Positions 1 to 50,086 of a DNA stretch of 64,000 nt are shown here, piece after piece. Below the pieces are notes generated by a model. That model saw only the letters and a list, made by a program, of their open reading frames with translations, was not told where the DNA came from and did no database searches. The number at the start of each line of letters is the position of its first letter. Positions within the stretch are counted from its first letter, which is position 1. The stretch is from Gracilariopsis chorda (lineage: Eukaryota; Rhodophyta; Florideophyceae; Gracilariales; Gracilariaceae): positions 1 through 64,000 of the forward strand of contig NBIV01000187.1 of the NCBI GenBank assembly GCA_003194525.1, in the 5' to 3' direction. The translations under genes were made by a program, and so were the position numbers.

Positions 1-3000
1 TTTCATGTACCCTTGATAGAATCGTGTTGATCGTGGAATTGAACCTATATCGTTTAACTCGAATGCCAACGGCTTGGTTTGGTACCTTTGGTATGATAGT
101 ACTATGGGCTGGTGGAAGGACACAAATGAGAACTTTTATATAACACTTCGTGGAAACTGAGCTGAGGCAGCTCGTTTCCATTACCCTCTCCCTCCTATCT
201 CTCTTTATCACTTGGTTCCAGCTTGTTCTTAATGCTCTTCGATTCTGGTTGAATGGGAAGCTTCAACGGTTTGTCTTCATTATCGCACAGGCAGTCACCG
301 CTTGATCCGCACTACATACTGCCGTCAAACGAAACAACTTCATTGCTCCTAGTTGACGCTTGCTTGCGTTCTTGAGTATGTGGATAGCCGGGCGGGGTAG
401 AGTGCCGCCTTAAGATACCTTGCGAGTGATCACAACGCATTGCAATCAGAAAGCTCCACATAAAATGTAAGCTCCCGGGCTATGTTGGGAGGATTTTGCG
501 ACAGCCGAAAGTCGCAAGACCCTATGAAGAAACGATAGATTGATCAACTGCTGCGTGTAGAACAAATTGTTCGACAGAATTAGAATTAGTCGCACAACAC
601 TGGCCTTGAGTGTGAAGAGTATCTTCGGCCTCATCGCCTTGAATTGGCTCCGATAAAGTCACTTCTGCGGTTCAGTGAAGTAGCAGGCCACACTGGGTAG
701 GGATTAGATCGAACGCCACGGTACAAGAATACTATTTCTCTCATTCGTGAGCGCTCTCTGGGTCGACTTACAAAGTACCAAAGGTACTAAGTATACAACA
801 TAGGGTCTGCACTGAATTCCGTTCAACCTTTGAAACCATTTAGAGCGCTTTGTCTCGGCGTAGATGCAATAATATGAACTTTATATTAATTCTCAAGCTT
901 CGTCTGGTAATGAAAAAAGGGAAGGAAACGCACCATTTTGTGCAACTCCACGACAGAGCAGAACAAAACTGTTCCTATCTGAGCATAGAGTGAGTGCAAA
1001 AAAAGGGTGGAATCGTGTCAGCACATGTAGGTGAGAGTTAGGAACTTTTTGCGGCAGAAAGTGGTGGCGAAGAGGATGCGAGACAGTAAAGTAGTTCAAC
1101 TTCACACATGCAAACACGAACCAAAGTTGTAAGCCCAGCTGAGCAAGTGAATCACCGTGTGTCCAACCACGCATTCATATACTCTTCAGAGTTACAAGGA
1201 GGGCAAAGGGTGCTCGGGTGGCCCGTCCCGGCACTCATGATCACGGAGAGAGGTAATCCCATCAATCGTGGCATTCATTCCAGCGATAAACTGCGGTCGA
1301 GTAGGGCCATTTGGTCTAGAAAGCATCTTCTGTCTGTTCTGTTCGCGTTCACAATAATCGCTATTGCGATCAGTGTGTTCCGGTATCACCAGGCGAGCAA
1401 GCTTGGTTTGACAGCGGTGCATACTTTCAATTCTGAAGATATAAAATTGGTCTGACAGACGTATCCTGGATTCGCCTCACCGTGACTGTAGTTATGCTGG
1501 AAGGCTGATAGCGGATCTCAGTGTCGGATACGGATGCAAACCAATGCGCCACAAAACGTCCCTGACCGCATGGGAGCATTATGCCTCGCACGTGCCCAGC
1601 TATAGAGGACGAAAACGGGAGCTTTATGTTGGTCAGAACGAGAAATGCGACAGTATGTCGTGCTAACGCAATGGCGATGGCGCGGACAAAAGAACAGGCA
1701 CAAGGACCTTGGAAAGTCCCCTCCAAGGATATGCCTTCGATCCCTCCTCTTCCACGAGGGATCGGGAGTTTTATATTGCGCGCAAACAGCGTCAAGTGTT
1801 GTCCTGCCACGTGTAGTACAAGCCTACTTGCTTTTTTTTGACTCTTTAACCCCTACAAGCCTGCCTATTCCTACAAGCCGGCAAAAACGCGGCCGCCTTG
1901 AAGCCTGTCACGGTGCCTCCAGCCAAGCCTTTCGTTATTCAATGATATTTGAGGACTGGGCCTCGCGGTCGTCTTTCCTCCGGTCCTTGATGCTTGCGAG
2001 TCAGAAGAACCGATTCGGAGAACTGCATCGGAGACGGCGGAGAAGCGGTTTCCACTACGATCGCCGCGCAAAAGCCTCAAGTAAATAAGCTTCTTCGTGT
2101 CCTTGAAAATCCAGTATAAAGCACACGGGCGCATTTGCGTGGCCATCAACACTTTACCGGACATGTCGATGCCGAAACCGTGCATGCCACAAGAAGGAGC
2201 ACGAATGTTATGCTGATAGGGGTAAACATATTTACAGAATGGACTCTTGAAGTTGTGTTTGACTGAGACAGTGAACTGGACTGTTCCGTTTTCTCTTATA
2301 CTTGTTACACTAGTCATTCCATGCCTGGAAGGTGCAAATGCGGTTACAGGGCGCCATCTATGATCTATGCAGGCTGGGTCAAATTTGCAAGCAGCAGTCT
2401 GGTATGTAGTCTAGAGAATAGATAGTTTGACCGAGTACGACAGTTTTTTGGGTAGCTAATGGAACGTTGAACAACCGGAGCTTGAGAAACAAGATATAGT
2501 TCTAGATCACGACGGCTTTAATCCTAGTTGGATCAGAACCATGGGTCTTAATGGGAGGTGATTGTCATTAGAGACCAAGAACAAACCGGACGGTTCTATC
2601 ACGAAGGTAGAGATTGGTACGATGGATACTTGCTCGAGGAGTGATTCCTCACTATAAAAGCTGTAGAAAAGGAATCGACAAGCAAACAATGAGGATAAGA
2701 CTCTACACCCTCTTCAACTATCATACTTCCTTGTCACTTGTGCCCACCACTACGCTTCGATCATAAGACCTAAATCCTGATTACGTAAGGCCTTGGGCCG
2801 CAACAAAACATTTAAGGAGACTGCCAGGTCTCCTTCTACAATGAGACAAGTGGAGACGTTCTTGTATAGACATTCTACGGTTGCAGTTTGTAATTGTTAT
2901 TTCAAACCGTTACGTCCGTAATCACATAGCGTCCGTTCTTGATGTATTTATGTTACATCTGCATGCTTCGCCGTATGTGTCGAGGAACCCCACTTCGGCA

Positions 3001-3915
3001 TGCTGACATGTACATCACATTCGTTCGTTCAGGATCCTTTAGTGCGGATCCGGAGTACTCGGCATATGACTTGTTCCCACACCATGTTCTTTCAAGGCGC
3101 CTATCGCATCGCTCAGAGTAATCATCAACGTAGCCGCTACCTTCCTCCTTTGATTCAGAGTGACTTAGCACCGGATTATTAGGCAAGTCCGCCTTAAGCC
3201 ACATAGGTTCGTGGAGCCCACGGTACTCGCCAAGGCAGCCGAATGTATCGCGGTAGTAATCCGTTGTTTATTCGTAGTCGTCGTTCTTTCCTTTTCCTCT
3301 CCCTCCTAAAAAGGGCATGCGGTCTACTCTATCTTATACATTTCTAAAAAGAGTGGTTCTGTCCGTACAGGTGACGAAGTTAAGTTCAGCACAGTTCTGT
3401 GCTCAATGCCGTCCCAAACATCCTGACCAGTCTGCACCGGCTGCAGCACAAGCTGCAGTTCTTCTACAAGCAGTTTCGTTTCAGTTTTGTTAGCACTCAT
3501 ATGACTCAGCCAACTTAGTTTGGTACAATTCAAGCACTCCGATTAGCTACCCGTTCTAAATGATACCCAAGTTAGAACCAAGGTATGCTATCCTCGAAAG
3601 TACTTGAGCATATAAGCATGCCACTCTTTTCTCCAGTAAATATAGAAGTCCCGAACCTCTCAGAAGCCCAGTGCTTCCTTCACCCACTCATGCTACAGCC
3701 ATGACGGTAAAAAAGAAACAGGCACCATAACTCTGCTTCTTCTTTTCGTTAGGTCCTGCCTTTATTGTGGGGAACATGAACATGTAGAAGGCCAGAACCA
3801 ACGGTACTAGTTTATTAGATCATTAGTTAGTTGAAATCTGTTAGAAACTCTATGAACTCGACTTCGCCTGGCTTGGTTCACAACCAGGTGGTGATCAGAA
3901 CAGCCACATTGGTAA
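1..3915. other. Outer arm segment with no recognised gene
   Basis: Mirrored at about 22,012-25,926. Several overlapping open frames exist but none matches a family I know. Most lose their frame between the two arms because of one-base indels, which argues against strong coding constraint or for sequence error. Two frames with some protein character are listed separately. About 2,970-3,300 also has a diverged third copy at 26.2-26.55 kb. Confidence 0.5.
1108..1455 (+). CDS. Hypothetical ORF with one membrane segment
   Basis: This is a 115-residue open frame of unknown function. Residues about 74-95 form one hydrophobic helix preceded by basic residues (WSRKHLL...), the layout of a type II membrane anchor or uncleaved signal. 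No catalytic domain follows before the stop. The mirror copy (24,485-24,814, minus strand) keeps the hydrophobic helix, but one-base indels change both ends of the protein. It could be the membrane-anchor part of a larger wall-related enzyme, but nothing downstream supports that. It could equally be a chance ORF. Confidence 0.2.
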   Translation: MQTRTKVVSPAEQVNHRVSNHAFIYSSELQGGQRVLGWPVPALMITERGNPINRGIHSSDKLRSSRAIWSRKHLLSVLFAFTIIAIAISVFRYHQASKLGLTAVHTFNSEDIKLV

Positions 3916-4783
3916 TTAGGAACGAACCATTTGATAGCTGCGGACATAGTAAATCTGCCAGGCATTTGGAAGTTTCTTAGGTCCATACTGGCCTGGCTCA
4001 CCAAACCAGACTGGAAAAACCTCCGAGTCCAGCTGAAGGTATAACGGGATATGGAAATCATCGTTTCGAATTCGACGCACCTCCCTGTCGTTCAAGTACC
4101 AGACCAAGACATCCCGTTTCCACAGCAAGCCAACTTTGATCTTCTCCTGGCTTAGGTCACGGCCGACGTCGATCTTCATAGGGTTTGAACGGACATTCAC
4201 TCCGTTCGGACCAGAGTACACAAGAGTGTTCATATTGAACTTGCGTTTGAACGGCACGCTGGATCTGTCGTAAACATCAGGCGTCTTTCCGCTGGTTGAG
4301 TACTCGAAAACGTCGATCTCAGTATCCTTATGGTTGATGAACCAGAATGCGCAGCTAACCGGGCAGTCCATAAGCTTGCAAGCTATTTCGAAATAACCAT
4401 ACATTCTCTTTTCAGCAGTTCGAATAAAGCCGGTGGAAAAGCGCCTGTTGTTTCCTACGGGACGGCCATGGTTCTCACGGAGGTACTCAGCAGAAGGCCT
4501 CTCCTCGCGGCTTTCCAGCCACAAAGATCCGTCGCGGATGTAGACATTGTTCTTTGAGAAAAAGCTCGGCTCCCGACCAACCCAGAGCGGGTTGTGGCGA
4601 ACCCTTCCGAGAGCCGTACCAGGATTCAAGAGGATAAGCGTTGAACTCATCAGACATGTTTTGGTCTTTTAACCATCTCGTGTTCCTTGGGAGCTCTTGC
4701 TGAAGGTAGTACGGGAGAGGAGTGTTCGGGTCGGTGATAGACGGATCATAAGTAAGCGGGGGCACGTTCATAGGGATCGTCAT
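3916..4783 (-). CDS. GH16 glycoside hydrolase (agarase/porphyranase-like), left-arm copy, one frameshift
   Basis: Members of GH16 cleave or rearrange beta-linked galactans and glucans; red algal members probably remodel wall agar or carrageenan. The 244 residues of the main frame (4,650-3,916) hold most of the beta-jelly-roll fold. Its catalytic motif EIDVFE, with nucleophile E111, D113 and acid/base E116, is intact, as are the GYFEI strand before it and the WFG segment near the C-terminus. The N-terminal part (MTIPMNVPP through SDEFNAYPLESWY) is in another frame from an ATG at 4,783, chosen because a TATAAG lies about 95 bp upstream. One frameshift between about 4,630 and 4,590 separates the parts. 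No clear signal peptide is seen. It is either a recent pseudogene or a gene with a sequence error. Confidence 0.8.
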
Positions 4784-6097
4784 TGCTAGTGTAGAAAGTG
4801 AAACTGTAGGTACAGCTGCGGTATGTGTTGTAATGAGGTTAGGTTGGTACCGAAGAACGAGAGAGGTGCAGTTGCTTCTTATATGCAAATGGTTCATCCT
4901 CTTCCCCACTGCGACGCGTTACTCATCTCTCCAAAAAGCTGTTTCTTGTAGTCTTGATGTAGATGACACGTATGTAGCACCAAGGCAGAATGAGGTGGTA
5001 GTGGTCAAGGATGACATTTACCAGGGGTACTGGTCCTCGCTTGGCTTCCCATTTTGATAGTCCCCTCGTTAGCATCGCAAAACCCATGCAAAAAAAACAA
5101 AATACAGAAACTGTAAAAAGTGATAACGAGGATAATGCCGCCACCTTGTGAATCCATTGGGGACCCGGTGGAAGTGAATAATTGCAACAAGTATGAACAG
5201 TACGTTGCACCATAAAAAGCAACAGTGAACACTAATACCAGCCTATTTCACCTAACACTATGTGTGGTGAAGCGTCCCAACTGTTCCGAGATATCCTATG
5301 ACAAACAAAGAAGTTGGGGAGGTAGATGAGATTGGAGTACGAAGAAGGGTATACAAAGAGATGCATGGAACTTAAGTAATGCTCAACATTACTATATCGG
5401 CATTGGAATATACATCTTTCGTACATATGTTTTCTGAGATCGATACAATTTAGTAGCACACCACAAGTAGCATGATACCATGCTTCTCAAGTCATGGTGA
5501 AAAGTTCTGATGTACACAGGTCTTAGGTAACCTCCTCTCCACATAGTTTTATTCTTGTTTTCTGCTTTCAAGCGGGGATTCGAATCCTCTCTTCTGCATG
5601 CCGTTTCATGATAGGACGATGTTCATGAACAGCGTTGACAAACGCACTCGCCTTGGTGTCAAGGGCGTTCCGTAAAATTTGCCAACATCTTAACGTCATC
5701 CTTCATGTCAGGAAGCACGAAAATACATAGCAGTGACTACACGTTACTGTTTCATGTTACATGGAATTATGAATCGAGAACTTATTCGAAAACAGAAAGC
5801 GATGGCAGTACTCCACTATACGTGAATGGGCGTCAACTTCTCATGCTGCAATGTGGTACAGCTGCTTCTTCGATGACGTTCTCTGCAGAAGTACTGAGTC
5901 TTGTTAGAGTTCATGAGGACGGAGTACAACCACTGCTGCGCGAAAGTAACGAGACGCTGACAATGCATTTTCAATTCGTCCTGTTGTGATTGATCAGGCT
6001 TGAAGCAGAGTGAGACATGTGGAAGAAATATAATAGCACACGAAAAACGGTGACCGAAATTAGGTAGTCTCGTGATCTCGCATAGTTTTGTCCGTAA
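4784..6097. other. Arm segment between GH16 and the piggyBac-type element
   Basis: Mirrored at 19,830-21,143. Apart from the GH16 TATA-like box I recognise nothing. A 94-residue frame at 5,705-5,989 (plus strand) is identical in both arms but has no family I can name. Confidence 0.4.
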
Positions 6098-9000
6098 CTA
6101 ATGTCTATCTGACCAGCGACCTCATATGACTTCAATTTTAATTACTCTAGAACTTTATCAAAACCTTAAAACTTTTCAAAAAACTTTATCGCTTTGATCT
6201 TCTCATTATGTCTTCTACGCCCGGCAGCGACGAACCATGTCGACAAAACATCACCAACAGTCGTAGCTGTCGAATCGAGTACTATTGTCAACAACATTCG
6301 TACACTATGGCCCCGTTTATAGATCTTCGCAGAACTGTTGGAACAACTGTCAACAGCCGTGCTCGTCTGGTTACAAATGACGCTGAATGCAAACGTTATT
6401 ATAGATCTTTATGGAAATTAACAACGGCAAAAGGTTTTGTTTTCAATGTTGAAATTGAAAGATTAACAATCAAAATATCACTTTCCTGACTGCGAAGTTT
6501 GGAATACCAAACAAAGAGAAAGAAGCAACCCTACCTCTGTTCAGTGTCTAAGTAGGTACCGTTGTTGATGAAGCCTTGAATGCTGCAGTAGAACCTATTA
6601 ATGAGTTTGAACTTATTAATACGCAGAAAATTGACCAAGATGCTCTTTTGACAACATCTCAGATGCAAGGTTTGCATCTGTGAAGACGTTTACTAAGCGA
6701 TTATACACCTGTCCAATCAACTGTGATTCATGGTCAATTATGGTACATCTGTACAATGTTGAGTCATCTGACTGGTTTTATGCCAATGCATACATAAAAG
6801 GGGTTGTTACAGCAGAAACTTTATCTCAACGCGTCATGGTATTCCAAAAATGAGCGAATTAGATTTCTTCGTTTGGATGTTTCCTATGCAGCACATGCAG
6901 TTCATAGTGAACAGAACAACTTTTCGGTTAGTAATCAAAGACGTTCGGAGGACTTCAGAAGGAAAACAGCGCAAATTCTTGGAATTCTTATCGTAATGAA
7001 TCGCATTGAGTGTTCTAACAGACGGGATCTTCGGAACCTCGAGCCGTTTTCTAAGTTTGTTCCTCAGCCAAATATTTGTCTTGCGATGTCACGGAACAGA
7101 TTTTAAATGCTTAGAAGTTCAATATGCTTCAGCAGAAATGGTTTGACTGAAGAGCAAGAAACCGCGCGTTGGTCCTTCGTAGCAGAGTTTGTGAAAGCAA
7201 TGAATGACCATCGTTGGTCTTTTTTTCACGCCATCACATGCCTTATGTGTTGGCGAATGAATGTCAGGATGGTACGGATTAGGCGGTAATTGGATTGATA
7301 TCGGGCTTCCACACTATACGGCATTACATAGAAAACTGGAAAATTTTCTTGAAATGAAGGCCGTATGTTGTGCACGAAGTGGCATAATGCTGAACGTTGA
7401 GCTCAATATGGGTGCTAAAATTACCGAACAAGTTTTTGATTCTGATAACGCCCATCGAACTGCAGTCTTACTTTGCTTAGTGCAACCATGGTTTGGATCA
7501 GAAAGGTTCGTATGTGCGAATTCCTTTTTTGAGGCTGTTAGTACCTCGAAAGCATTACCGGAGAAAGGTTTACGGTTTACTGGAGTGGTCAAGAACACGA
7601 CTAGTAAATTTCCTATGAAACATCTCTCCGAAGCTACTCTATCGGGCAGGGGAGATTTTTTACCTATGATATCAAAAGGAAGCAATATCAATAATGATAT
7701 AATGGCTAAAATGTGGATTTACAGAGTATAGAGCAACGCGTGGTGTTCATATCGATGAAGATCCTTCTCATAGGATGTGCCAATGTCACGGCTCAGCAGC
7801 TCTCAGGTTATGAGTTTCCCCCAAAATTGGGTTGAAATCTGGTGGATTATGGATGGGGTTTCACCTGGCAGGTTAGTTCATGAACAGCCTCAACTGGGCA
7901 GGATGCGTGGTACGCGTGTACAGAAGTTGGATCCGATTACGGATATACGCCTTGGGCGAGTGGCACCTGTGGACCGTGACAGTGCGTTCTCCACGTGTAT
8001 GGACCTCCGCAGGTTTGCACTACTTTAGTTAATTATTATATTTAATTACTCTACAATCTACTTAGGTGAAGCTGACCTCGCCATCGTCACCATCAAGCAA
8101 ACTCAACTGAGGTTTGCACCATAGCTAGAGTGTTGGCTCTGGTCGCAACTGCCTTCGTAGGTCACGACTCCATCTGGAGAGTAACCACGCTTGGTCTCAG
8201 TACGACTATCCCCTCAGGACCACCAAGGACTTCTGTGTAAGTACACCGACCGTGGGTCTAACAGTGTGTGTTATTTTACGTATCCTGTTGCAGGACAGAT
8301 CTCCGCCCCAGTATTAGGTTGTTCTTTGGTTATTTCTACTATTCTACCCTTTGGTTCTCGGGTCTGTTGCCACTGTGAGCACGATCCTCGCCCCTTTTCG
8401 TGTTTGGCCTCTTTTCCCTTCGGGACGCTACACTTGCTGTGTACGCTGTCTACACTCGCCATTCGGGTCCTTTTTCTGACCCTATTTCTCTCAGGATTCT
8501 ACGTTTTCACCTCTACGGGTATATCCAGTGTCCACCGACGGATTTACACCCGACACTCGGGTGGAGTAGAGGGCTCGTCCGCTGAGTCTACCCTTCCTAG
8601 GGAGCAAGGACTCGGACGCCTTGAGAGCTACAACCCTCACGGGTTTTGATCCAGACAGAGAAAGAAGATATTTCATATCAACCTCTGACACGCTTAATCC
8701 TGGTTCTTCTATTATTCGAGAAAGGTGGAAACGGGAGAGAAATATTTCTAAGAAAGTGGAATTGGAGATCCCAATTCCCGAAGTGTGTGAAGAGTATTAC
8801 AAAAATTGTTCAACGGCCGATCGCCATAACAGATGCAGACAAGATGATCTGAATCTGGAACAGAGAATTGAAGTGAAATAGTGGTCATTTCGACTGAATT
8901 GCTCTCTTTTAACGATTTGTATTGTTGACGCGTGGAAGTTGAACAAAGCCGCAAATGGAACCAGAAACGTGAAGAGTCCGCACTACGTCAATTGCCAATT

Positions 9001-9849
9001 GGCTGATGAACTAATTGAGAATACATGGGATACCACAGGTCTAATGAATATAGATTAGCAAGAATGTGAAAATTTTCATGAGAAGCCAATGTTTGCAGGC
9101 ACTGGCTTGCGTTTAATACGAACGATTAGACGAAGAAAAACTAAGGATGGTAAAATTACAAAAGCTTTATATCAAGAACGATGCAATTCTTGCAAAGGTA
9201 ATACAAAGTCCAAGTTTTTATGTTCTGGATGCTATATCAGGAAGAAAAAAGGAGTGGTTTTATGTCACACCGGTACTAATAGAGATTGTTTTATGAAATA
9301 AATTGAAGAATGTCACGGTATAATGAAGTTCAGAAGCTGATACAGATGTCAACAACCTTGTCAAATTTCGTTTTTATAGTAACAATCTATGTTTGAATGG
9401 AAAAGTTTATCATAAGTCCATTTTACCTTAAGCCCCCTACTAATTCAATCCGCGTTACTTAGAATTGCTAGATAACTAAACTCTATGAAAAAACCGCCTC
9501 TTTAACAGATGTCACCGTATTCTTTCTGCTGGTCAAATGGGTGGTAAAAACGTTCTATGAGTTTAAATATATTTAGAATTAGTCAAGCTCCCAAAGAAGT
9601 TTAAATAAACTCAGCGAGGTTCGAACTCATGTTTTGTTGCTGGCATGTGACCTGACGACCACTGAGCTGCTGTTATGGCTTAGTGGTCGTCTTCTACAAC
9701 TACTTATAGTTCAAAGACAGCCCCGTTGGCCATTTCAAGTTTAAAATTCGAAATGTGGGGCCATGCGGATCTGATGTCAGTTGTTTTAATTTCGGGTGCC
9801 GGTGTGCTGACCTCATATGAAGTCAGCGCACCGGTCCAGTAGACACTAG
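6098..9849 (+). mobile_element. Decayed piggyBac-type (DDE_Tnp_1_7) transposon, left-arm copy
   Basis: Translated pieces across 6,208-9,301 match a piggyBac-like transposase: GLPHYTALHRK, the LVQPWFGSERFVCANSFF block, a GVVKNTTSKFPMK block, DRHNRCRQDDL, and a C-terminal Cys-rich zinc-binding tail (RCNSCKG..CSGCY) at 9,089-9,301. The usual catalytic Asp of the CADSFF block is Asn here (CANSFF). Several stops and frameshifts split the rest, and a 928-bp insertion lies inside the DDE domain, so it is dead. I place the ends at imperfect inverted repeats of about 35-45 bp, CTA(A/G)TGTCTA followed by a CATATG-centred palindrome. The typical TTAA duplication is not seen, so these ends are less certain than the protein match. 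Confidence 0.75.
7727..8654. mobile_element. 928-bp insertion inside the piggyBac-type transposase, left arm
   Basis: Flanked by an exact 6-bp duplication ACAGAG (7,721-7,726 and 8,655-8,660). Without it and one duplicate, the transposase frame reads on as MWIYRERRYFIST, as expected for the family, so this is an insertion and not part of the gene. No terminal inverted repeats are visible. Part of it resembles 41.39-41.7 kb, including an exact 14-base CGGGTGTAAATCCG, so it belongs to a repeat family. Class is unknown. Confidence 0.75.
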
Positions 9850-9938
9850 GCAGAGGTGGGTTGCTTGTGTGAGAGCTGGCTAAATGCATCGTTGTCCACG
9901 TTCTTCTGGTGTCTGGCACGACACATCTTTAGCCCAGA

Positions 9939-10124
9939 GTTCTAAGACCTGTCCGCTCCTTTCAGAAGGTTTCTTTTGTCGAAAAGAAAAAACTGCCGAT
10001 CAATTAGATGCATTGAACCCCACTAGCTACGAAAGACGAAACCGTCACAGTTACTCGTGACACTAGTGCTTCATAGGTGTTCTCTCCATAGGAAGCATTA
10101 AAATCGACTATGTATGACAACATG
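9939..10124. other. Central spacer of the palindrome (186 bp)
   Basis: Unpaired sequence between the two arms. I see no gene or known element in it. A spacer this short between 9.9-kb arms would favour hairpin or cruciform formation, so it may mark the inverted-duplication junction. Confidence 0.8.
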
Positions 10125-10160
10125 TCTGGGCTACAGATGTGTCGTGCCAGACACCAGAAG

Positions 10161-10341
10161 TGTGAGAGGTAGAATTAGAGAGAGTTGCATTGTAATTCTC
10201 TCAATTACAATGCAACTCCGAATTGAGATTGCATTCGGTGCTCTCCTTCAATTAGGCTTACAAATAATTAGAAGATAGAGTCTATAAAGGAGCGGCCGGC
10301 GGCGCAGTCTGTGTTCTCTGCCGGCCACGCACTTCGTCTCA
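10161..10341 (+). repeat. 5' LTR of the palindrome Copia
   Basis: Begins TGTGAGAGGTAGAATT and ends ACTTCGTCTCA. Near its start are two 15-base halves (AGTTGCATTGTAATT and its complement) separated by CTCTC, a perfect hairpin that the other LTR also keeps. Confidence 0.92.
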
Positions 10342-11035
10342 TGCTTGCATCGCTCACACATCCCTCGACCGCAACCCCAAAGTATCCCTCTTTCTATCTC
10401 AACCCCCCAAACCCTCCATATCGCCGCTCCAAAGCCTTCTCTCCCAAGACGAACCACCATTCCCTCTTCTCATTCTAACTCCGCAACACACACCTCATTT
10501 TCTGTAACCCCTCCAAAGACCATGGAATTCAATTTCGGACCACAAGCCTACAAGCTCTACTTGTTTGTTACTACTTAGCATTACGACTTCACCCTTTACT
10601 TTGGAAATTCCACCTCCATTTCCAACCTAAAGCCGAACAACTCGCAAGCCGAGTACCGGGACAAGAACCAAGTGGGCACTTAAAGTAGTCTTTAGGATTT
10701 GACAAGTAGGAACGGCTTTCGGCCGTGGGCAGGCTGCGCGCCGCGTTGGTTTTATAGCTTTGTTGATTTAGCAGCGTTCGGAAACTCTCCGAGCACATTG
10801 CTCGCTTGCGCTCGCAATAACGCTCGTAGAACCCCGGGCTGCCACGGCGCCTAGCGTATGTGGAGCCGTAAATGGTTGTGTGTAGGGGACTAAATTGACT
10901 GCAGTGCCAGCAAATGAGGGAAAAGTGCGACACGATGCTTTTTGTAACTGACTGGCAGTGCAGTCATTATGGGAGTGCCAGCCAGTAAGCAGCCAGCTTT
11001 GCCGCTGCTGCTGCTGCTGAGTTTTTTAAGTAGTA

Positions 11036-11112
11036 GGGAGGCGTTGCGCCAAATGGGCGTTTTTCATGCGCAAACGGGGGTTTGCAAAGCGAATTTGTGG
11101 CGCAACGCCTCC
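11036..11112. repeat. Hairpin-forming inverted repeat in the Copia leader
   Basis: GGGAGGCGTTGCGCCA and its exact reverse complement flank about 45 bases, with weaker pairing just inside. It lies in the long leader between the 5' LTR and gag and could be a small nested hairpin element. Confidence 0.6.
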
Positions 11113-14100: not shown

Positions 14101-15838
14101 GCTGAAAGACAAACGTGGAGACTCATTGAAAGGAAGACAGGAATGAAACCCCTTCCATTTTTGTGGACGTTTAGTGGGCAATTTATAAGTATATGTCTTC
14201 CAGAAACGCTCCACAAAGCTGGATGTGTCGTATGAAGCGACATGCAAAGACCATATTTGGACTACGATCCTGACAATCTGTACGCACCTGTGGCTCCCCT
14301 CAAAACATTCCGACCAGATTTGGCCAAGGCAGCCGCACAGAGACTGCTTTTGGAGACAATGGATATAAGCAACGCTTACCTTTACAGTGACCTAGAAGAA
14401 CCGTTGATAATGGAGCAACCCCAGAATGCCTCTGGCTCTTCTTATGTCCTGGTAAAGTTTCTTTTACTGTTGAAATCCATTTCCGGTGCAAAGCAATCGC
14501 GACAAATATTGGGATCTCTCTTGCACACAGAGGTAGTTCGACTGGGATCTAGGCAGTCGAACACGGACAGTAGGCTGTACATTTACAGGTCAGGAAATGG
14601 CACAATAATTATTGTCGTCTTTGTAGACGACATTCTGACTCTGTCCGATTCAAGGTCTCTCTTGGAAGACTTTAAGGCCGAAATGAAGAAACTGTTTCAA
14701 GTAAAACTCCTTCGTGAGGCCATTGGTCTGGAACTAAAAAGCGATAAGCACGGTATTCGTGCAAGCCAAGAGAGGTATGTGGAAAAACTACTTCGGGATT
14801 AAAATCTCTGCAATGCAAACCTGGCAAAGACTCCATTACCGTCACCTTGTACTGTTTCAGCGAGAGGTCATAGTCAAAAAATTCTTCCATCATTGTATCA
14901 CGCAAAATACCGTAAATTGGTTGGTCACCTGATGTACTTGGCAGTGGCATTGAGGCCTGATATTATGTTCGCAGCATCAATGTTGGCGAGGCAGGTACAA
15001 AATCCTTGTCAGAGGCACCTTGCACTGGCAAAACACGTCTTAAGATACTTGAAAGACACAAAGAACCTTTTTCTCTACTTCCCGTCGGAAAGTTGTGCTC
15101 TGATGGAAGCATTGAAAAAATGCGGAATGGGATGATTGTCCCGAAACTAGAAAGTCTACAACTGGCATACTAGTGAATGTGAATGATGGACCCGTGTTAT
15201 GGACGACGAAAAAGCAAACAATTCCTGCTTTGTCTTTTGGAGAAGCTGAATAAATTGCTCTCTCGTATTGTGGGAAGCTGCTAACTTGGTTACGAAGACT
15301 GTTTTTGGAGCTTCGAAATAGTACCATTCCTGAAGATGAACCCAATGACATGTACCCGAATCGTATTAGTAGCGACAGCTCCACTGCAAATTTTATTGTG
15401 AATGCGTCCATCTGAAAGGAACAAACACATTGCACTTAAGTTCCATCCTGTTAGGGAACATCTGGGTTCCTAAGTATATCACAGATACGAAGCGAAGTTC
15501 AACCAGCGGACATTATGACGAAACATGTTTCTCAAGACCATACATATAAGCTTTCTATACTTTTCGGTTTGAGGTAATTTCTTTTTACGACATTTCTATC
15601 CTATGTTGCTCTTTTTTGTGTTGTGAATGTTTGCAGAACTTATGGAAAATGACCTTGAGAAAATCAAACTGAGAAAAGGCTACACTTTTTCCTATTGTAC
15701 GCAGATTTTTCCTTCTACGTTTTTACAGGTGCAAGAGGATTTTAACGGTAGCCATTAAGCTACAAAGCTTTATTATAGTTATTATCTTGTATTCTCTGTT
15801 TCCAACGCAAAACGTTTAGAGTTGTTTGCGAAGGATGT

Positions 15839-16020
15839 TGTGAGAGGTAGAATTAGAGAGAGTTGCATTGTAATTCTCTCAATTACAATGCAACTCTAAA
15901 TTGAGATTGCATTCGGAACTCTCCTTCAATTCGGCTTACAAATAATTAGAAGGTAGAGTCTATGAAAAGAGCGGCCGGCGGCGCAGTCTGTGCTTTATGC
16001 TGGCCACATACTTCGTCTCA
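15839..16020 (+). repeat. 3' LTR of the palindrome Copia
   Basis: Matches 10,161-10,341 with about 15 differences. It is followed directly by AGAAG, the second copy of the target duplication, and then by the resumed palindrome arm. Confidence 0.92.
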
Positions 16021-16236
16021 AGAAGAACGTGGACAAAGATGGATTTAGCCAGCTCTCACACAAGCAACCCACCTCTGCCTAGTGTCTACTGGACCGGTGC
16101 GCTGACTTCATATGAGGTCAGCACACCGGCACCCGAAATTAAAACAACTGACATCAGATCCGCATGGCCCCACATTTCGAATTTTAAACTTGAAATGGCC
16201 AACGGGGCTGTCTTTGAACTATAAGTAGTTGTGGAA

Positions 16237-16274
16237 GACGACCACTAAGCCATAACAGCAGCTCAGTGGTCGTC
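16237..16274. repeat. 14-bp-stem inverted repeat in the piggyBac-type element
   Basis: GACGACCACTAAGC and GCTCAGTGGTCGTC pair with one mismatch around a 10-base loop. A mirror copy lies at about 9,654-9,691. The tRNA-like wording nearby (AGCTCAGTGGT) is explained by this hairpin. Confidence 0.6.
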
Positions 16275-17273
16275 AGGTCACATGCCAGCAACAAAACATG
16301 AGTTCGAACCTCGCTGAGTTTATTTAAACTTCTTTGGGAGCTTGACTAATTCTAAATATATTTAAACTCATAGAACGTTTTTACCACCCATTTGACCAGC
16401 AGAAAGAATACGGTGACATCTGTTAAAGAGGCGGTTTTTTCATAGAGTTTAGTTATCTAGCAATTCTAAGTAACGCGGATTGAATTAGTAGGGGGCTTAA
16501 GGTAAAATGGACTTATGATAAACTTTTCCATTCAAACATAGATTGTTACTATAAAAACGAAATTTGACAAGGTTGTTGACATCTGTATCAGCTTCTGAAC
16601 TTCATTATACCGTGACATTCTTCAATTTATTTCATAAAACAATCTCTATTAGTACCGGTGTGACATAAAACCACTCCTTTTTTCTTCCTGATATAGCATC
16701 CAGAACATAAAAACTTGGACTTTGTATTACCTTTGCAAGAATTGCATCGTTCTTGATATAAAGCTTTTGTAATTTTACCATCCTTAGTTTTTCTTAGTCT
16801 AATCGTTCGTATTAAACGCAAGCCAGTGCCTGCAAACATTGGCTTCTCATGAAAATTTTCACATTCTTGCTAATCTATATTCATTAGACCTGTGGTATCC
16901 CATGTATTCTCAATTAGTTCATCAGCCAATTGGCAATTGACGTAGTGCGGACTCTTCACGTTTCTGGTTCCATTTGCGGCTTTGTTCAACTTCCACGCGT
17001 CAACAATACAAATCGCTAAAAGAGAGCAATTCAGTCGAAATGACCACTATTTCACTTCAATTCTCTGTTCCAGATTCAGATCATCTTGTCTGCATCTGTT
17101 ATGGCGATCGGCCGTTGAACAATTTTTGTAATACTCTTCACACACTTCGGGAATTGGGATCTCCAATTCCACTTTCTTAGAAATATTTCTCTCCCGTTTC
17201 CACCTTTCTCGAATAATAGAAGAACCAGGATTAAGCGTGTCAGAGGTTGATATGAAATATCTTCTTTCTCTGT

Positions 17274-18201
17274 CTGGATCAAAACCCGTGAGGGTTGTAG
17301 CTCTCAAGGCGTCCGAGTCCTTGCTCCCTAGGAAGGGTAGACTCAGCGGACGAGCCCTCTACTCCACCCGAGTGTCGGGTGTAAATCCGTCGGTGGACAC
17401 TGGATATACCCGTAGAGGTGAAAACGTAGAATCCTGAGAGAAATAGGGTCAGAAAAAGGACCCGAATGGCGAGTGTAGACAGCGTACACAGCAAGTGTAG
17501 CGTCCCGAAGGGAAAAGAGGCCAAACACGAAAAGGGGCGAGGATCGTGCTCACAGTGGCAACAGACCCGAGAACCAAAGGGTAGAATAGTAGAAATAACC
17601 AAAGAACAACCTAATACTGGGGCGGAGATCTGTCCTGCAACAGGATACGTAAAATAACACACACTGTTAGACCCACGGTCGGTGTACTTACACAGAAGTC
17701 CTTGGTGGTCCTGAGGGGATAGTCGTACTGAGACCAAGCGTGGTTACTCTCCAGATGGAGTCGTGACCTACGAAGGCAGTTGCGACCAGAGCCAACACTC
17801 TAGCTATGGTGCAAACCTCAGTTGAGTTTGCTTGATGGTGACGATGGCGAGGTCAGCTTCACCTAAGTAGATTGTAGAGTAATTAAATATAATAATTAAC
17901 TAAAGTAGTGCAAACCTGCGGAGGTCCATACACGTGGAGAACGCACTGTCACGGTCCACAGGTGCCACTCGCCCAAGGCGTATATCCGTAATCGGATCCA
18001 ACTTCTGTACACGCGTACCACGCATCCTGCCCAGTTGAGGCTGTTCATGAACTAACCTGCCAGGTGAAACCCCATCCATAATCCACCAGATTTCAACCCA
18101 ATTTTGGGGGAAACTCATAACCTGAGAGGTGCTGAGCCGTGACATTGGCACATCCTATGAGAAGGATCTTCATCGATATGAACACCACGCGTTGCTCTAT
18201 A
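17274..18201. mobile_element. 928-bp insertion inside the piggyBac-type transposase, right arm
   Basis: Mirror of 7,727-8,654 with the same 6-bp duplication (CTCTGT in this orientation). Open frames inside it (such as 17,279-17,737) resemble no protein I know. Confidence 0.75.
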
Positions 18202-21043
18202 CTCTGTAAATCCACATTTTAGCCATTATATCATTATTGATATTGCTTCCTTTTGATATCATAGGTAAAAAATCTCCCCTGCCCGATAAAGTAGCTTCGG
18301 AGAGATGTTTCATAGGAAATTTACTAGTCGTGTTCTTGACCACTCCAGTAAACCGTAAACCTTTCTCCGGTAATGCTTTCGAGGTACTAACAGCCTCAAA
18401 AAAGGAATTCGCACATACGAACCTTTCTGATCCAAACCATGGTTGCACTAAGCAAAGTAAGACTGCAGTTCGATGGGCGTTATCAGAATCAAAAACTTGT
18501 TCGGTAATTTTAGCACCCATATTGAGCTCAACGTTCAGCATTATGCCACTTCGTGCACAACATACGGCCTTCATTTCAAGAAAATTTTCCAGTTTTCTAT
18601 GTAATGCCGTATAGTGTGGAAGCCCGATATCAATCCAATTACCGCCTAATCCGTACCATCCTGACATTCATTCGCCAACACATAAGGCATGTGATGGCGT
18701 GAAAAAAGACCAACGATGGTCATTCATTGCTTTCACAAACTCTGCTACGAAGGACCAACGCGCGGTTTCTTGCTCTTCAGTCAAACCATTTCTGCTGAAG
18801 CATATTGAACTTCTAAGCATTTAAAATCTGTTCCGTGACATCGCAAGACAAATATTTGGCTGAGGAACAAACTTAGAAAACGGCTCGAGGTTCCGAAGAT
18901 CCCGTCTGTTAGAACACTCAATGCGATTCATTACGATAAGAATTCCAAGAATTTGCGCTGTTTTCCTTCTGAAGTCCTCCGAACGTCTTTGATTACTAAC
19001 CGAAAAGTTGTTCTGTTCACTATGAACTGCATGTGCTGCATAGGAAACATCCAAACGAAGAAATCTAATTCGCTCATTTTTGGAATACCATGACGCGTTG
19101 AGATAAAGTTTCTGCTGTAACAACCCCTTTTATGTATGCATTGGCATAAAACCAGTCAGAGGACTCAACATTGTACAGATGTACCATAATTGACCATGAA
19201 CCACAGTTGATTGGACAGGTGTATAATCGCTTAGTAAACGTCTTCACAGATGCAAACCTTGCATCTGAGATGTTGTCAAAAGAGCATCTTGGTCAATTTT
19301 CTGCGTATTAATAAGTTCAAACTCATTAATAGGTTCTACTGCAGCATTCAAGGCTTCATCAACAACGGTACCTACTTAGACACTGAACAGAGGTAGGGTT
19401 GCTTCTTTCTCTTTGTTTGGTATTCCAAACTTCGCAGTCAGGAAAGTGATATTTTGATTGTTAATCTTTCAATTTCAACATTGAAAACAAAACCTTTTGC
19501 CGTTGTTAATTTCCATAAAGATCTATAATAACGTTTGCATTCAGCGTCATTTGTAACCAGACGAGCACGGCTGTTGACAGTTGTTCCAACAGTTCTGCGA
19601 AGATCTATAAACGGGGCCATAGTGTACGAATGTTGTTGACAATAGTACTCGATTCGACAGCTACGACTGTTGGTGATGTTTTGTCGACATGGTTCGTCGC
19701 TGCCGGGCGTAGAAGACATAATGAGAAGATCAAAGCGATAAAGTTTTTTGAAAAGTTTTAAGGTTTTGATAAAGTTCTAGAGTAATTAAAATTGAAGTCA
19801 TATGAGGTCGCTGGTCAGATAGACATTAGTTACGGACAAAACTATGCGAGATCACGAGACTACCTAATTTCGGTCACCGTTTTTCGTGTGCTATTATATT
19901 TCTTCCACATGTCTCACTCTGCTTCAAGCCTGATCAATCACAACAGGACGAATTGAAAATGCATTGTCAGCGTCTCGTTACTTTCGCGCAGCAGTGGTTG
20001 TACTCCGTCCTCATGAACTCTAACAAGACTCAGTACTTCTGCAGAGAACGTCATCGAAGAAGCAGCTGTACCACATTGCAGCATGAGAAGTTGACGCCCA
20101 TTCACGTATAGTGGAGTACTGCCATCGCTTTCTGTTTTCGAATAAGTTCTCGATTCATAATTCCATGTAACATGAAACAGTAACGTGTAGTCACTGCTAT
20201 GTATTTTCGTGCTTCCTGACATGAAGGATGACGTTAAGATGTTGGCAAATTTTACGGAACGCCCTTGACACCAAGGCGAGTGCGTTTGTCAACGCTGTTC
20301 ATGAACATCGTCCTATCATGAAACGGCATGCAGAAGAGAGGATTCGAATCCCCGCTTGAAAGCAGAAAACAAGAATAAAACTATGTGGAGAGGAGGTTAC
20401 CTAAGACCTGTGTACATCAGAACTTTTCACCATGACTTGAGAAGCATGGTATCATGCTACTTGTGGTGTGCTACTAAATTGTATCGATCTCAGAAAACAT
20501 ATGTACGAAAGATGTATATTCCAATGCCGATATAGTAATGTTGAGCATTACTTAAGTTCCATGCATCTCTTTGTATACCCTTCTTCGTACTCCAATCTCA
20601 TCTACCTCCCCAACTTCTTTGTTTGTCATAGGATATCTCGGAACAGTTGGGACGCTTCACCACACATAGTGTTAGGTGAAATAGGCTGGTATTAGTGTTC
20701 ACTGTTGCTTTTTATGGTGCAACGTACTGTTCATACTTGTTGCAATTATTCACTTCCACCGGGTCCCCAATGGATTCACAAGGTGGCGGCATTATCCTCG
20801 TTATCACTTTTTACAGTTTCTGTATTTTGTTTTTTTTGCATGGGTTTTGCGATGCTAACGAGGGGACTATCAAAATGGGAAGCCAAGCGAGGACCAGTAC
20901 CCCTGGTAAATGTCATCCTTGACCACTACCACCTCATTCTGCCTTGGTGCTACATACGTGTCATCTACATCAAGACTACAAGAAACAGCTTTTTGGAGAG
21001 ATGAGTAACGCGTCGCAGTGGGGAAGAGGATGAACCATTTGCA

Positions 21044-21049
21044 TATAAG
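21044..21049 (+). promoter_or_regulatory. TATA-like box upstream of GH16
   Basis: TATAAG lies 95 bp before the proposed GH16 start codon, within gcatataaga. The mirror copy is at 4,878-4,883 on the minus strand. Its spacing suits a transcription start near 21,075 and a short leader. This is inference from sequence only. Confidence 0.4.
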
Positions 21050-21143
21050 AAGCAACTGCACCTCTCTCGTTCTTCGGTACCAACCTAACCTCATTACAAC
21101 ACATACCGCAGCTGTACCTACAGTTTCACTTTCTACACTAGCA

Positions 21144-22011
21144 ATGACGATCCCTATGAACGTGCCCCCGCTTACTTATGATCCGTCTATCACCGACCCG
21201 AACACTCCTCTCCCGTACTACCTTCAGCAAGAGCTCCCAAGGAACACGAGATGGTTAAAAGACCAAAACATGTCTGATGAGTTCAACGCTTATCCTCTTG
21301 AATCCTGGTACGGCTCTCGGAAGGGTTCGCCACAACCCGCTCTGGGTTGGTCGGGAGCCGAGCTTTTTCTCAAAGAACAATGTCTACATCCGCGACGGAT
21401 CTTTGTGGCTGGAAAGCCGCGAGGAGAGGCCTTCTGCTGAGTACCTCCGTGAGAACCATGGCCGTCCCGTAGGAAACAACAGGCGCTTTTCCACCGGCTT
21501 TATTCGAACTGCTGAAAAGAGAATGTATGGTTATTTCGAAATAGCTTGCAAGCTTATGGACTGCCCGGTTAGCTGCGCATTCTGGTTCATCAACCATAAG
21601 GATACTGAGATCGACGTTTTCGAGTACTCAACCAGCGGAAAGACGCCTGATGTTTACGACAGATCCAGCGTGCCGTTCAAACGCAAGTTCAATATGAACA
21701 CTCTTGTGTACTCTGGTCCGAACGGAGTGAATGTCCGTTCAAACCCTATGAAGATCGACGTCGGCCGTGACCTAAGCCAGGAGAAGATCAAAGTTGGCTT
21801 GCTGTGGAAACGGGATGTCTTGGTCTGGTACTTGAACGACAGGGAGGTGCGTCGAATTCGAAACGATGATTTCCATATCCCGTTATACCTTCAGCTGGAC
21901 TCGGAGGTTTTTCCAGTCTGGTTTGGTGAGCCAGGCCAGTATGGACCTAAGAAACTTCCAAATGCCTGGCAGATTTACTATGTCCGCAGCTATCAAATGG
22001 TTCGTTCCTAA
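21144..22011 (+). CDS. GH16 glycoside hydrolase (agarase/porphyranase-like), right-arm copy, one frameshift
   Basis: This is the mirror copy of the left-arm GH16 gene and points away from it. The ATG at 21,144 opens MTIPMNVPPLTYDPSI and leads to SDEFN and LESWY, which fit the start of a GH16 domain. The frame then shifts once near 21,300-21,335 into the 244-residue frame 21,277-22,011 carrying EIDVFE (the catalytic acids) and the C-terminal jelly-roll strands. The shift is present in both arms, so it either predates the duplication or was spread by conversion; an independent read error is less likely. A TATAAG at 21,044-21,049 precedes the ATG by 95 bp. There is no intron within the domain, as is common in red algae. 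Confidence 0.8.
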
Positions 22012-23608
22012 TTACCAATGTGGCTGTTCTGATCACCACCTGGTTGTGAACCAAGCCAGGCGAAGTCGAGTTCATAGAGTTTCTAACAGATTTCAACTAA
22101 CTAATGATCTAATAAACTAGTACCGTTGGTTCTGGCCTTCTACATGTTCATGTTCCCCACAATAAAGGCAGGACCTAACGAAAAGAAGAAGCAGAGTTAT
22201 GGTGCCTGTTTCTTTTTTACCGTCATGGCTGTAGCATGAGTGGGTGAAGGAAGCACTGGGCTTCTGAGAGGTTCGGGACTTCTATATTTACTGGAGAAAA
22301 GAGTGGCATGCTTATATGCTCAAGTACTTTCGAGGATAGCATACCTTGGTTCTAACTTGGGTATCATTTAGAACGGGTAGCTAATCGGAGTGCTTGAATT
22401 GTACCAAACTAAGTTGGCTGAGTCATATGAGTGCTAACAAAACTGAAACGAAGCTGCTTGTAGAAGAACTGCAGCTTGTGCTGCAGCCGGTGCAGACTGG
22501 TCAGGATGTTTGGGACGGCATTGAGCACAGAACTGTGCTGAACTTAACTTCGTCACCTGTACGGACAGAACCACTCTTTTTAGAAATGTATAAGATAGAG
22601 TAGACCGCATGCCCTTTTTAGGAGGGAGAGGAAAAGGAAAGAACGACGACTACGAATAAACAACGGATTACTACCGCGATACATTCGGCTGCCTTGGCGA
22701 GTACCGTGGGCTCCACGAACCTATGTGGCTTAAGGCGGACTTGCCTAATAATCCGGTGCTAAGTCACTCTGAATCAAAGGAGGAAGGTAGCGGCTACGTT
22801 GATGATTACTCTGAGCGATGCGATAGGCGCCTTGAAAGAACATGGTGTGGGAACAAGTCATATGCCGAGTACTCCGGATCCGCACTAAAGGATCCTGAAC
22901 GAACGAATGTGATGTACATGTCAGCATGCCGAAGTGGGGTTCCTCGACACATACGGCGAAGCATGCAGATGTAACATAAATACATCAAGAACGGACGCTA
23001 TGTGATTACGGACGTAACGGTTTGAATAACAATTACAAACTGCAACCGTAGAATGTCTATACAAGAACGTCTCCACTTGTCTCATTGTAGAAGGAGACCT
23101 GGCAGTCTCCTTAAATGTTTTGTTGCGGCCCAAGGCCTTACGTAATCAGGATTTAGGTCTTATGATCGAAGCGTAGTGGTGGGCACAAGTGACAAGGAAG
23201 TATGATAGTTGAAGAGGGTGTAGAGTCTTATCCTCATTGTTTGCTTGTCGATTCCTTTTCTACAGCTTTTATAGTGAGGAATCACTCCCTCGAGCAAGTA
23301 TCCATCGTACCAATCTCTACCTTCGTGATAGAACCGTCCGGTTTGTTCTTGGTCTCTAATGACAATCACCTCCCATTAAGACCCATGGTTCTGATCCAAC
23401 TAGGATTAAAGCCGTCGTGATCTAGAACTATATCTTGTTTCTCAAGCTCCGGTTGTTCAACGTTCCATTAGCTACCCAAAAACTGTCGTACTCGGTCAAA
23501 CTATCTATTCTCTAGACTACATACCAGACTGCTGCTTGCAAATTTGACCCAGCCTGCATAGATCATAGATGGCGCCCTGTAACCGCATTTGCACCTTCCA
23601 GGCATGGA

Positions 23609-23986
23609 ATGACTAGTGTAACAAGTATAAGAGAAAACGGAACAGTCCAGTTCACTGTCTCAGTCAAACACAACTTCAAGAGTCCATTCTGTAAATATGT
23701 TTACCCCTATCAGCATAACATTCGTGCTCCTTCTTGTGGCATGCACGGTTTCGGCATCGACATGTCCGGTAAAGTGTTGATGGCCACGCAAATGCGCCCG
23801 TGTGCTTTATACTGGATTTTCAAGGACACGAAGAAGCTTATTTACTTGAGGCTTTTGCGCGGCGATCGTAGTGGAACCGCTTCTCCGCCGTCTCCGATGC
23901 AGTTCTCCGAATCGGTTCTTCTGACTCGCAAGCATCAAGGACCGGAGGAAAGACGACCGCGAGGCCCAGTCCTCAAATATCATTGA
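23609..23986 (+). CDS. Hypothetical ORF, unknown function
   Basis: This is a 125-residue frame starting at an ATG soon after a non-coding stretch. The mirror frame at 1,871-2,317 (minus strand) is identical for about 90 residues, then a one-base indel changes the C-terminus. The first 90 residues are balanced in composition and contain four cysteines. I recognise no domain, signal peptide or membrane segment. Further open frames follow on the same strand to about 24,820, so this could be part of a longer decayed gene. Confidence 0.2.
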   Translation: MTSVTSIRENGTVQFTVSVKHNFKSPFCKYVYPYQHNIRAPSCGMHGFGIDMSGKVLMATQMRPCALYWIFKDTKKLIYLRLLRGDRSGTASPPSPMQFSESVLLTRKHQGPEERRPRGPVLKYH

Positions 23987-26216
23987 ATAACGAAAGGCTT
24001 GGCTGGAGGCACCGTGACAGGCTTCAAGGCGGCCGCGTTTTGCCGGCTTGTAGGAATAGGCAGGCTTGTAGGGGTTAAAGAGTCAAAAAAAGCAAGTAGG
24101 CTTGTACTACACGTGGCAGGACAACACTTGACGCTGTTTGCGCGCAATATAAAACTCCCGATCCCTCGTGGAAGAGGAGGGATCGAAGGCATATCCTTGG
24201 AGGGACTTCCAAGGTCCTTGTGCCTGTTCTTTTGTCCGCGCCATCGCCATTGCGTTAGCACGACATACTGTCGCATTTCTCGTTCTGACCAACATAAAGC
24301 TCCCGTTTTCGTCCTCTATAGCTGGGCACGTGCGAGGCATAATGCTCCCATGCGGTCAGGGACGTTTTGTGGCGCATTGGTTTGCATCCGTATCCGACAC
24401 TGAGATCCGCTATCAGCCTTCCAGCATAACTACAGTCACGGTGAGGCGAATCCAGGATACGTCTGTCAGACCAATTTTATATCTTCAGAATTGAAAAGTA
24501 TGCACCGCTGTCAAACCAAGCTTGCTCGCCTGGTGATACCGGAACACACTGATCGCAATAGCGATTATTGTGAACGCGAACAGAACAGACAGAAGATGCT
24601 TTCTAGACCAAATGGCCCTACTCGACCGCAGTTTATCGCTGGAATGAATGCCACGATTGATGGGATTACCTCTCTCCGTGATCATGAGTGCCGGGACGGG
24701 CCACCCGAGCACCCTTTGCCCTCCTTGTACTCTGAAGAGTATATGAATGCGTGGTTGGACACACCGGTGATTCACTTGCTCAGCTGGGCTTACAACTTTG
24801 GTTCGTGTTTGCATGTGTGAAGTTGAACTACTTTACTGTCTCGCATCCTCTTCGCCACCACTTTCTGCCGCAAAAAGTTCCTAACTCTCACCTACATGTG
24901 CTGACACGATTCCACCCTTTTTTGCACTCACTCTATGCTCAGATAGGAACAGTTTTGTTCTGCTCTGTCGTGGAGTTGCACAAAATGGTGCGTTTCCTTC
25001 CCTTTTTTCATTACCAGACGAAGCTTGAGAAATTAATATAAAGTTCATATTATTGCATCTACGCCGAGACAAAGCGCTCTAAATGGTTTCAAAGGTTGAA
25101 CGGAATTCAGTGCAGACCCTATGTTGTATACTTAGTACCTTTGGTACCTTTGTAAGTCGACCCAGAGAGCGCTCACGAATGAGAGAAATAGTATTCTTGT
25201 ACCGTGGCGTTCGATCTAATCCCTACCCAGTGTGGCCTGCTACTTCACTGAACCGCAGAAGTGACTTTATCGGAGCCAATTCAAGGCGATGAGGCCGAAG
25301 ATACTCTTCACACTCAAGGCCAGTGTTGTGCGACTAATTCTAATTCTGTCGAACAATTTGTTCTACACGCAGCAGTTGATCAATCTATCGTTTCTTCATA
25401 GGGTCTTGCGACTTGTCGGCTGTCGCAAAATCCCTCCCAACATAGCCCGGGAGCTTACATTTTATGTGGAGCTTTCTGATTGCAATGCGTTGTGATCACT
25501 CGCAAGGTATCTTAAGGGCGGCACTCTACCCCGCCCGGCTATCCACATACTCAAGAACGCAAGCAAGCGTCAACTAGGAGCAATGAAGTTGTTTCGTTTG
25601 ACGGCAGTACGTAGTGCGGATCAAGCGGGTGACTGCCTGTGCGATAATGAAGACAAACCGTTGAAGCTTCCCATTCAACCAGAATCGAAGAGCATTAAGA
25701 ACAAGCTGGAACCAAGTGATAAAGAGAGATAGGAGGGAGAGGGTAATGGAAACGAGCTGCCTCAGCTCAGTTTCCACGAAGTGTTATATAAAAGTTCTCA
25801 TTTGTGTCCTTCCACCAGCCCATAGTACTATCATACCAAAGGTACCAAACCAAGCCGTTGGCATTCGAGTTAAACGATATAGGTTCAATTCCACGATCAA
25901 CACGATTCTATCAAGGGTACATGAAAGCTTGACTTGTTTACAAAACTGGAAAATACTGAAACTTTTCTTCGGATAGAAAAGATACAGTAATTTGCTGTCA
26001 GCAGGTTTGGATACGAACAACAACTACAGTATGTACAATTTGAAATTCAATTTTAAGGTCTATATCAAACTCTATATAAAAGGCATTGGAGTTTAGAAAA
26101 ACCTGATAACTAAGATGGCCTGCAATCACCGTCGCTGTGATAGACGTAGGATACTGGAACCTTCGGAAATCGAATCGAGAAAAAGATACAGTGGAGCGAC
26201 TCTTGTTGTAGTATGG

Positions 26217-26545: not shown

Positions 26546-26697
26546 ATACTGCCACTTATGGTTCCTTCGTCATCCATTAAAATCAGTTGGACTATCTCGT
26601 CCACAAACGAGCTCCTGCTCCAGTCTTTGAATAGCATCCCAAAGCACCTGGAGGCAAGAAATATTTGTTTACCAGGACTATCCATTTGTTTTTCTGT

Positions 26698-49222: not shown

Positions 49223-49226
49223 CTAT

Positions 49227-50037: not shown

Positions 50038-50086
50038 TCAATCTCCCCTAACTTTAGAGTCGACCCGACTCGTGACAAAGATTTTC

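Follow-up and report, generated by a model that had tools for sequence, protein, structure and literature searches.

An old Copia insertion in one arm of a near-identical palindrome in a red alga points to arm-to-arm gene conversion

How can the two arms of a palindrome be almost identical when one of them carries an insertion far more diverged than the arms themselves? This question is raised by the first 64 kb of contig C187 (NBIV01000187.1; 163,079 bp) of the red alga Gracilariopsis chorda (assembly of 91.3 Mb in 1081 contigs), here called the window, which opens with two long inverted arms around a spacer and has an old Copia retrotransposon in the right arm only. The reading we lean towards, and consider probable, is that of an old chromosomal palindrome whose arms have been kept nearly identical via arm-to-arm gene conversion.

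Structure of the palindrome

Self-comparison of the window by BLAST paired positions 1-9907 with 25926-16021 at 99.697% identity (9916 columns, 11 mismatches, 19 gap openings), and the arms extend further inward, 9903-9938 matching 10125-10160 at 97% over 36 bases with one mismatch. A first-pass annotation of this DNA had described near-identical arms around a 186-bp spacer, which was borne out with a left arm at 1-9938 and the two long inverted arms around a spacer present. As window base 1 is also the start of C187, the left arm is truncated by the contig end. The annotation had further placed a Copia element with an exact AGAAG target-site duplication (TSD) in the right arm and the matching empty site in the left arm; both were recovered, the element lying in the right arm only, 36 bp from the spacer. 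The palindrome and the element, with its long terminal repeats (LTRs), are composed as follows.

1 to 9938, minus strand: left arm, truncated at the contig start, carrying the empty Copia site
9903 to 9907, minus strand: empty target site CTTCT (AGAAG on the opposite strand), uninterrupted in the left arm
9939 to 10124, no strand: spacer, 186 bp
10125 to 10160, plus strand: innermost part of the right arm, complementary to 9903-9938 at 35 of 36 bases, terminating in the TSD copy at 10156-10160
10161 to 16020, plus strand: old, degenerate Copia element, longest stop-free frame 517 amino acids, RVT_2 fragment of 188 amino acids
10161 to 10341, plus strand: Copia 5' LTR, 181 bp
15839 to 16020, plus strand: Copia 3' LTR, 182 bp, 7.6% from the 5' LTR (Kimura two-parameter distance, K2P)
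16021 to 16025, plus strand: second TSD copy AGAAG, exact match to 10156-10160
16026 to 25926, plus strand: right arm, portion with its partner inside the window
25927 to 28732, plus strand: outer continuation of the right arm, common to contig C311 up to C311:11699 and ending at a sharp breakpoint

At the palindrome centre a hairpin is expected, and the strand of 9860-10165 folds into it with z = -7.3. No further copy of the 186-bp spacer occurred among the best 40 of 147 candidates in an assembly search with 9600-10160, no tandem repeats were found within 9800-10200, and an Rfam scan of the window gave zero matches reaching the gathering score.

Age of the Copia insertion

The element displayed the features of Ty1/copia retrotransposons, namely TG...CA LTRs, a 5-bp TSD and a Copia-type RVT_2. 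Its LTRs differ by 13 substitutions over 181 sites (10 transitions, three transversions) and one indel, giving a K2P of 0.076 with a standard error of 0.022. The family was sampled with 14 LTRs: the pair in the window, three on C311 and C86, and nine more from searches covering the best 40 of 114 and the best 40 of 120 candidates. Other LTRs of the family, assigned as pairs from orientation and spacing, are diverged by 8.2% on C111, 17.5% on C91 and 5.8% on C311, and the flanking 5-bp duplications match for C91 and C311 and at four of five bases for C111. In addition, the longest stop-free frame reaches 517 amino acids, compared with 1012 in a younger Copia at 29418-36601. The Copia in the right arm is old, as indicated by its LTR divergence, the family pairs and the broken coding region.

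It is very improbable that the LTR clock misleads here, i.e., that the element is young and its LTRs became diverged otherwise, as in a recombinant element or by fast mutation of the LTRs. LTRs on C72 and C171 lie nearer to the 5' LTR (5.8%) than its own 3' partner does (7.6%), and the LTR tree does not place the partners as sisters, with low support. However, the family is star-like, and weak pairing is expected in such a family. Also the exact TSD on both sides, the range of 5.8-17.5% among the four examined family pairs and the degenerate internal region argue against a young element.

Divergence between the arms

The left and right arms differ by 13 substitutions in 9892 sites, or 0.13%, a rate far below that of the LTRs (Fisher p about 1e-16). 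The annotated arm divergence of about 0.3% agrees with the BLAST identity of 99.697%; substitutions account for 0.13% and indels for the rest, 18 of the 19 columns private to the left arm lying near the contig start. The claim that the LTRs are far more diverged than the arms also held when the LTR figure was corrected, as this stayed higher (7.6% K2P against 0.13%).

LTR elements are not expected to excise cleanly; therefore, the empty site was already paired before Copia inserted. That the duplication predates the insertion, as had been annotated, thus stands for the 50-60 bp or so next to the empty site, of which 36 bp lie inward and at least 17 bp outward. It does not follow for the long arms, which could be younger than Copia, since the insertion dates just the repeat flanking the empty site, and later fold-back copying may have produced them. 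We consider such a fold-back duplication a serious alternative, although clearly less probable than conversion. In this case, Copia hit one half of a short inverted repeat that already existed (some 50-60 bp or longer, with the 186-bp spacer), and a broken end much later folded, paired just past Copia and had the whole arm copied by break-induced replication. Copia would then lie in the loop and be older than the arms, and ongoing conversion would be unneeded. Both the inverted homology at the junction (the 36-bp inner repeat and outer homology) and an unduplicated spacer are present, and the differences hugging the insertion, two in 17 bp outward and one in the inner repeat, suit an old pre-existing repeat. 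The route also avoids a long-lived palindrome with a spacer of 186 bp. The 6.1-kb loop falls within the spacer range of 766-70,466 bp given for human fold-back duplications in the available part of that report (PMC3907307).

A single recent copying event, however, predicts even divergence outside the old repeat, and the substitutions instead thin over kilobases. In right-arm coordinates they lie at 16037, 16042, 16233, 16796, 17016, 18129, 18289, 19161, 19201, 22453, 24205, 24206 and 25610, which is, outward from Copia, two in 17 bp, three in 983 bp, four in 2200 bp and four in the last 6701 bp. Inward of the insertion, one mismatch falls within the 36-bp inner repeat. Two-sided Kolmogorov-Smirnov tests on position, run on four selections of 9-13 sites after the pattern had been noticed, gave p = 0.041 for all 13 sites, 0.037 after close pairs had been merged, 0.005 when the doubtful pair 24205-24206 was left out and 0.031 when the first two sites were dropped as well. 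The first kilobase beside Copia compared with the remainder of the arm gave a Fisher p of 0.007. On this small sample, divergence along the arms appears uneven, with the substitutions densest beside Copia. The slope favours conversion, as conversion limited by a 5.9-kb heterology predicts a slope, whereas fold-back copying predicts a step at the old repeat. By conversion, Copia would have inserted long ago into the right arm at a distance of 36 bp from the spacer, and the element, having no partner, would restrict strand exchange in the adjoining sequence; old differences would persist beside it and the remaining arm sequence would be overwritten.

Arm copies on other contigs and the outer breakpoint

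A second contig, C311, has its start within the arm: C311:1-11699 corresponds to right-arm positions 17035-28732 at 99.78%. It covers eight of the 13 arm-difference sites (not the first five), of which seven are private to the left arm and one to the right arm, and over the shared 8.9 kb it has one substitution compared with the right arm and seven compared with the left arm. Either C311 continues the left arm outward, which would bring the arm to about 12.7 kb in total, or it represents a third copy that is nearly identical. As seven of the eight covered differences are private to the left arm, C311 as the left arm itself is disfavoured, unless consensus errors are involved or the start of C311 was assembled partly from right-arm reads. 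An ordinary allele of C187 was rejected: past C311:11699, comparison with C187:28733-104000 gave no near-identical collinear stretch, and what did match were relatives of Copia and dispersed repeats, a few at 64-70% identity.

At C86:80432-83147, the end of the arm is again adjoined by the flank seen on C311, with 97% identity. As this order is also found on C86, it is probably the older one, and the right flank of C187 past 28732, with its sharp break, would be the newer junction. Such a derived junction suits the fold-back route, and the order of flanks is compatible with either model. In its outer 2.8 kb, the right arm has eight differences from C311 in 2805 sites, five of which are clustered:

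26644 to 26699, no strand: cluster of five differences between the right arm and C311, candidate unconverted island (scan p = 3e-05)

Such a non-random cluster, five differences in 56 bp, speaks against a single fold-back copying. Another paralogue as conversion donor for the cluster was dismissed, as the search listed C187, C311 and C86 alone (all three candidates scored). The arm copy on C86 is cut at 28412 by a Copia.

The three-way comparison over the common stretch also gave private indel columns, 19 in the left arm, 16 in C311 and none in the right arm. Of the 19 left-arm columns, 18 fall in the 23-25 kb bins of the right arm, on the side of the C187 start; the 16 of C311 all fall in the 17-20 kb bins, on the side where C311 begins. 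Both contigs start within the arm, and such error-like indels toward their own starts would be expected if a chimeric or fold-back read had created the left arm, or if consensus building or polishing had homogenised truly different arms; a collapsed repeat consensus would likewise look identical inside and different at its edges. We judge an assembly effect of this kind unlikely. The left arm is no plain copy of the right arm, as Copia is missing from it and it carries distinct bases at 9886, at 9891 and within the inner repeat, and the first 2.2 kb outward of Copia align gap-free yet hold six differing sites. Arms 7% apart should assemble separately, and 36 differences within 697 bp were preserved between the two arms of an inverted repeat on C86 (see below). 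In addition, chaperonin family PF00118 was found at 10 loci, and Rpb2 (PF04560) as three long frames with pieces on five other contigs. Compared with the copy numbers that we assume for a haploid set, these counts read as a single haploid set, and the assembly has no haplotype-doubled look.

Neighbouring inverted repeats and concerted evolution in one of them

A second, older inverted repeat was located at C311:31255-33980/34996-37684, with arms of 2.7 kb and a spacer of 1.0 kb. Its arms differ by 10 substitutions in 2688 bp, six of them within 70 bp of the outer edge, four within 11 bp of the inner edge and none between; gaps comprise one base near the outer edge and three (38 columns) around 32812-32825, a tandemly repeated stretch. 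A paralogue is present at C86:84141-90328, and the four arms, left (L) and right (R) on each contig, were compared over the outer 700 bp, each arm being about 2700 bp long. Four sites at the edge (columns 5, 13, 26 and 33) unite the two left arms and the two right arms across the contigs, indicating that both palindromes descend from one whose arms were already distinct. At 11 sites (columns 50-680), the two C311 arms are alike and the two C86 arms are alike, whereas C311 and C86 differ, indicating that the arms were homogenised after the C311/C86 duplication. Private sites number 29 in C86R, three in C86L and two in C311R, and C86L and C86R differ at 36 positions in 697 bp. By these site patterns, the inverted repeat predates the C311/C86 duplication, and its arms have undergone concerted evolution. 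Conversion seen in a neighbouring inverted repeat also counts against the fold-back route.

A third inverted repeat, C86:183283-184806/184984-186508 with a spacer of 177 bp, is built from the same segment as the arms of the window. Its nearly identical arms differ by two substitutions and a single indel across 1525 columns, each of them located in the last 20.

A tandem array with 2.24-kb units stands at the facing contig ends C311:74000-86554 and C86:1-7634, and the last C311 unit is 99.2% like the first C86 unit. C311 and C86 may be neighbours joined through this array; the join is unproven, as related arrays occur elsewhere (among the best 18 of 231 candidates).

Other genes and elements

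Two further features lie within the arms.

6097 to 9850, plus strand: DNA-transposon remains in the left arm, DDE_Tnp_1_7 match at 7261-7731, mirrored at about 16078-19830; ends approximate, inferred from repeats at 6095-7200 and 9607-9850
3922 to 4783, minus strand: left-arm copy of a GH16 gene, with the N-terminal portion in a different frame and poorly matched, mirrored at 21144-22005

The DNA transposon is presumably piggyBac-like. The GH16 frame of the arm has 92% identity over 91% of its length to a Gracilaria domingensis protein and 85% to an Agarophyton chilense protein, matches that indicate a Gracilaria-like red alga. In the C86:183283-186508 repeat, 288 amino acids of GH16 aligned unbroken in both arms, whereas the window copies shift frame N-terminally. 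A capsid match in an open reading frame of the arm was dismissed as under the cut-off (E 0.065).

Elsewhere in the window, the young Copia at 29418-36601 has LTRs 99.3% alike over 291 bp, and a DDE_1 transposase frame (32706-34820, minus strand) is nested in it. Gypsy-type frames occur at 43808-56917, one with a chromodomain and a Tf2-1-like SH3 domain; this region holds the repeat pairs 49386-50039/56264-56917 (97.9%) and 43808-44170/48847-49209 (92.8%). A 64-bp near-perfect hairpin, 90.6% self-complementary, lies at 60299-60362.

Discussion

The first-pass annotation had proposed that the arms are homogenised by gene conversion. This stands as the best-supported reading, on the gradient toward Copia and the concerted evolution of the C311/C86 repeat, with fold-back duplication as a live rival. 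Homogenisation is seen in the neighbour; at the main locus, conversion would be the copying route, and we infer that the long arms, beyond the 50-60 bp at the empty site, exceed Copia in age. The annotated parallel with sex-chromosome palindromes, and the idea that Copia may have stabilised the palindrome, are conjectural.

Several points weigh against this reading. The repeat that must predate Copia is short, and the gradient rests on a small sample of 13 sites that was tested after the pattern had been noticed. No paralogue with both main arms was found, which leaves conversion at the main locus without direct demonstration, and the greater closeness of C311 to the right arm is unpredicted by a simple two-copy picture. 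The four-arm comparison covers part of each arm at a neighbouring locus, where the 29 private C86R differences indicate incomplete conversion on C86; within the C311 arms, the consensus may have been collapsed. Assembly or polishing could also have concealed small differences between the main arms. Finally, a GC bias on the arm lineage was not seen, with six weak-to-strong and 10 strong-to-weak changes of 20 in a small sample of 2642 sites. Such a bias is a frequent but not obligatory mark of gene conversion.

The kind of structure is already known from the W palindromes of willow; additions here are the red alga, the insertion beside the centre and the within-genome control. For human and ape Y palindromes, the available part of the P6 study describes near-identical arms, a single-copy spacer, a structure older than the arm divergence and multi-kilobase conversion tracts (PMC3723533). 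C187 shares the near-identical arms around a single-copy spacer; however, its arms measure about 10-13 kb, GC bias was not seen, and homogenisation is shown on a neighbour and inferred here. In Salix purpurea, single-arm LTR elements occur in the W palindromes, and the accessible text argues from LTR ages that arms more than 99% identical are old and converted (PMC7023750). The same argument, a single-arm LTR element older than the arm divergence, applies to C187, whereas the Salix arms measure about 14-73 kb and carry genes from a sex-determining region that has been mapped. In Caenorhabditis, long inverted repeats have arms of about 2.2 kb, a 126-bp spacer and 99.7% identity, with arms more alike within species than between orthologues, and no tie to sex chromosomes is mentioned in the portion of the paper available (PMC1803023). 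The logic applied to C311/C86 is, as far as that portion goes, the one used in Caenorhabditis, there across species and here across a within-genome duplication; unlike the repeats described in it, the main C187 palindrome holds an old retrotransposon. In human (PMC3907307) and yeast (PMC10622511) fold-back duplications, as in C187, the junction holds a short inverted repeat and the spacer is unduplicated; those described in the sections available are recent events, whereas the arm substitutions of C187 appear uneven.

A more far-reaching picture, which we regard as doubtful, is that of a local cluster of gene-converting palindromes in this red alga, possibly in a U/V sex-determining region, with Copia as a conversion barrier recording how far strand exchange reaches from non-homology. 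The words "palindrom", "inverted repeat" and "gene conversion" are absent from the main text of a paper on red-algal sex chromosomes (PMC12502185).

If the conversion reading is right, arm-to-arm gene conversion would be extended to a red alga. The locus would also provide a natural ruler, with an old insertion near the centre, arms that differ at few sites and paralogous palindromes by which older differences can be told from newer ones. As a caution for such loci in general, a single-arm insertion dates a palindrome safely just for the repeat stretch that truly flanks the empty site.

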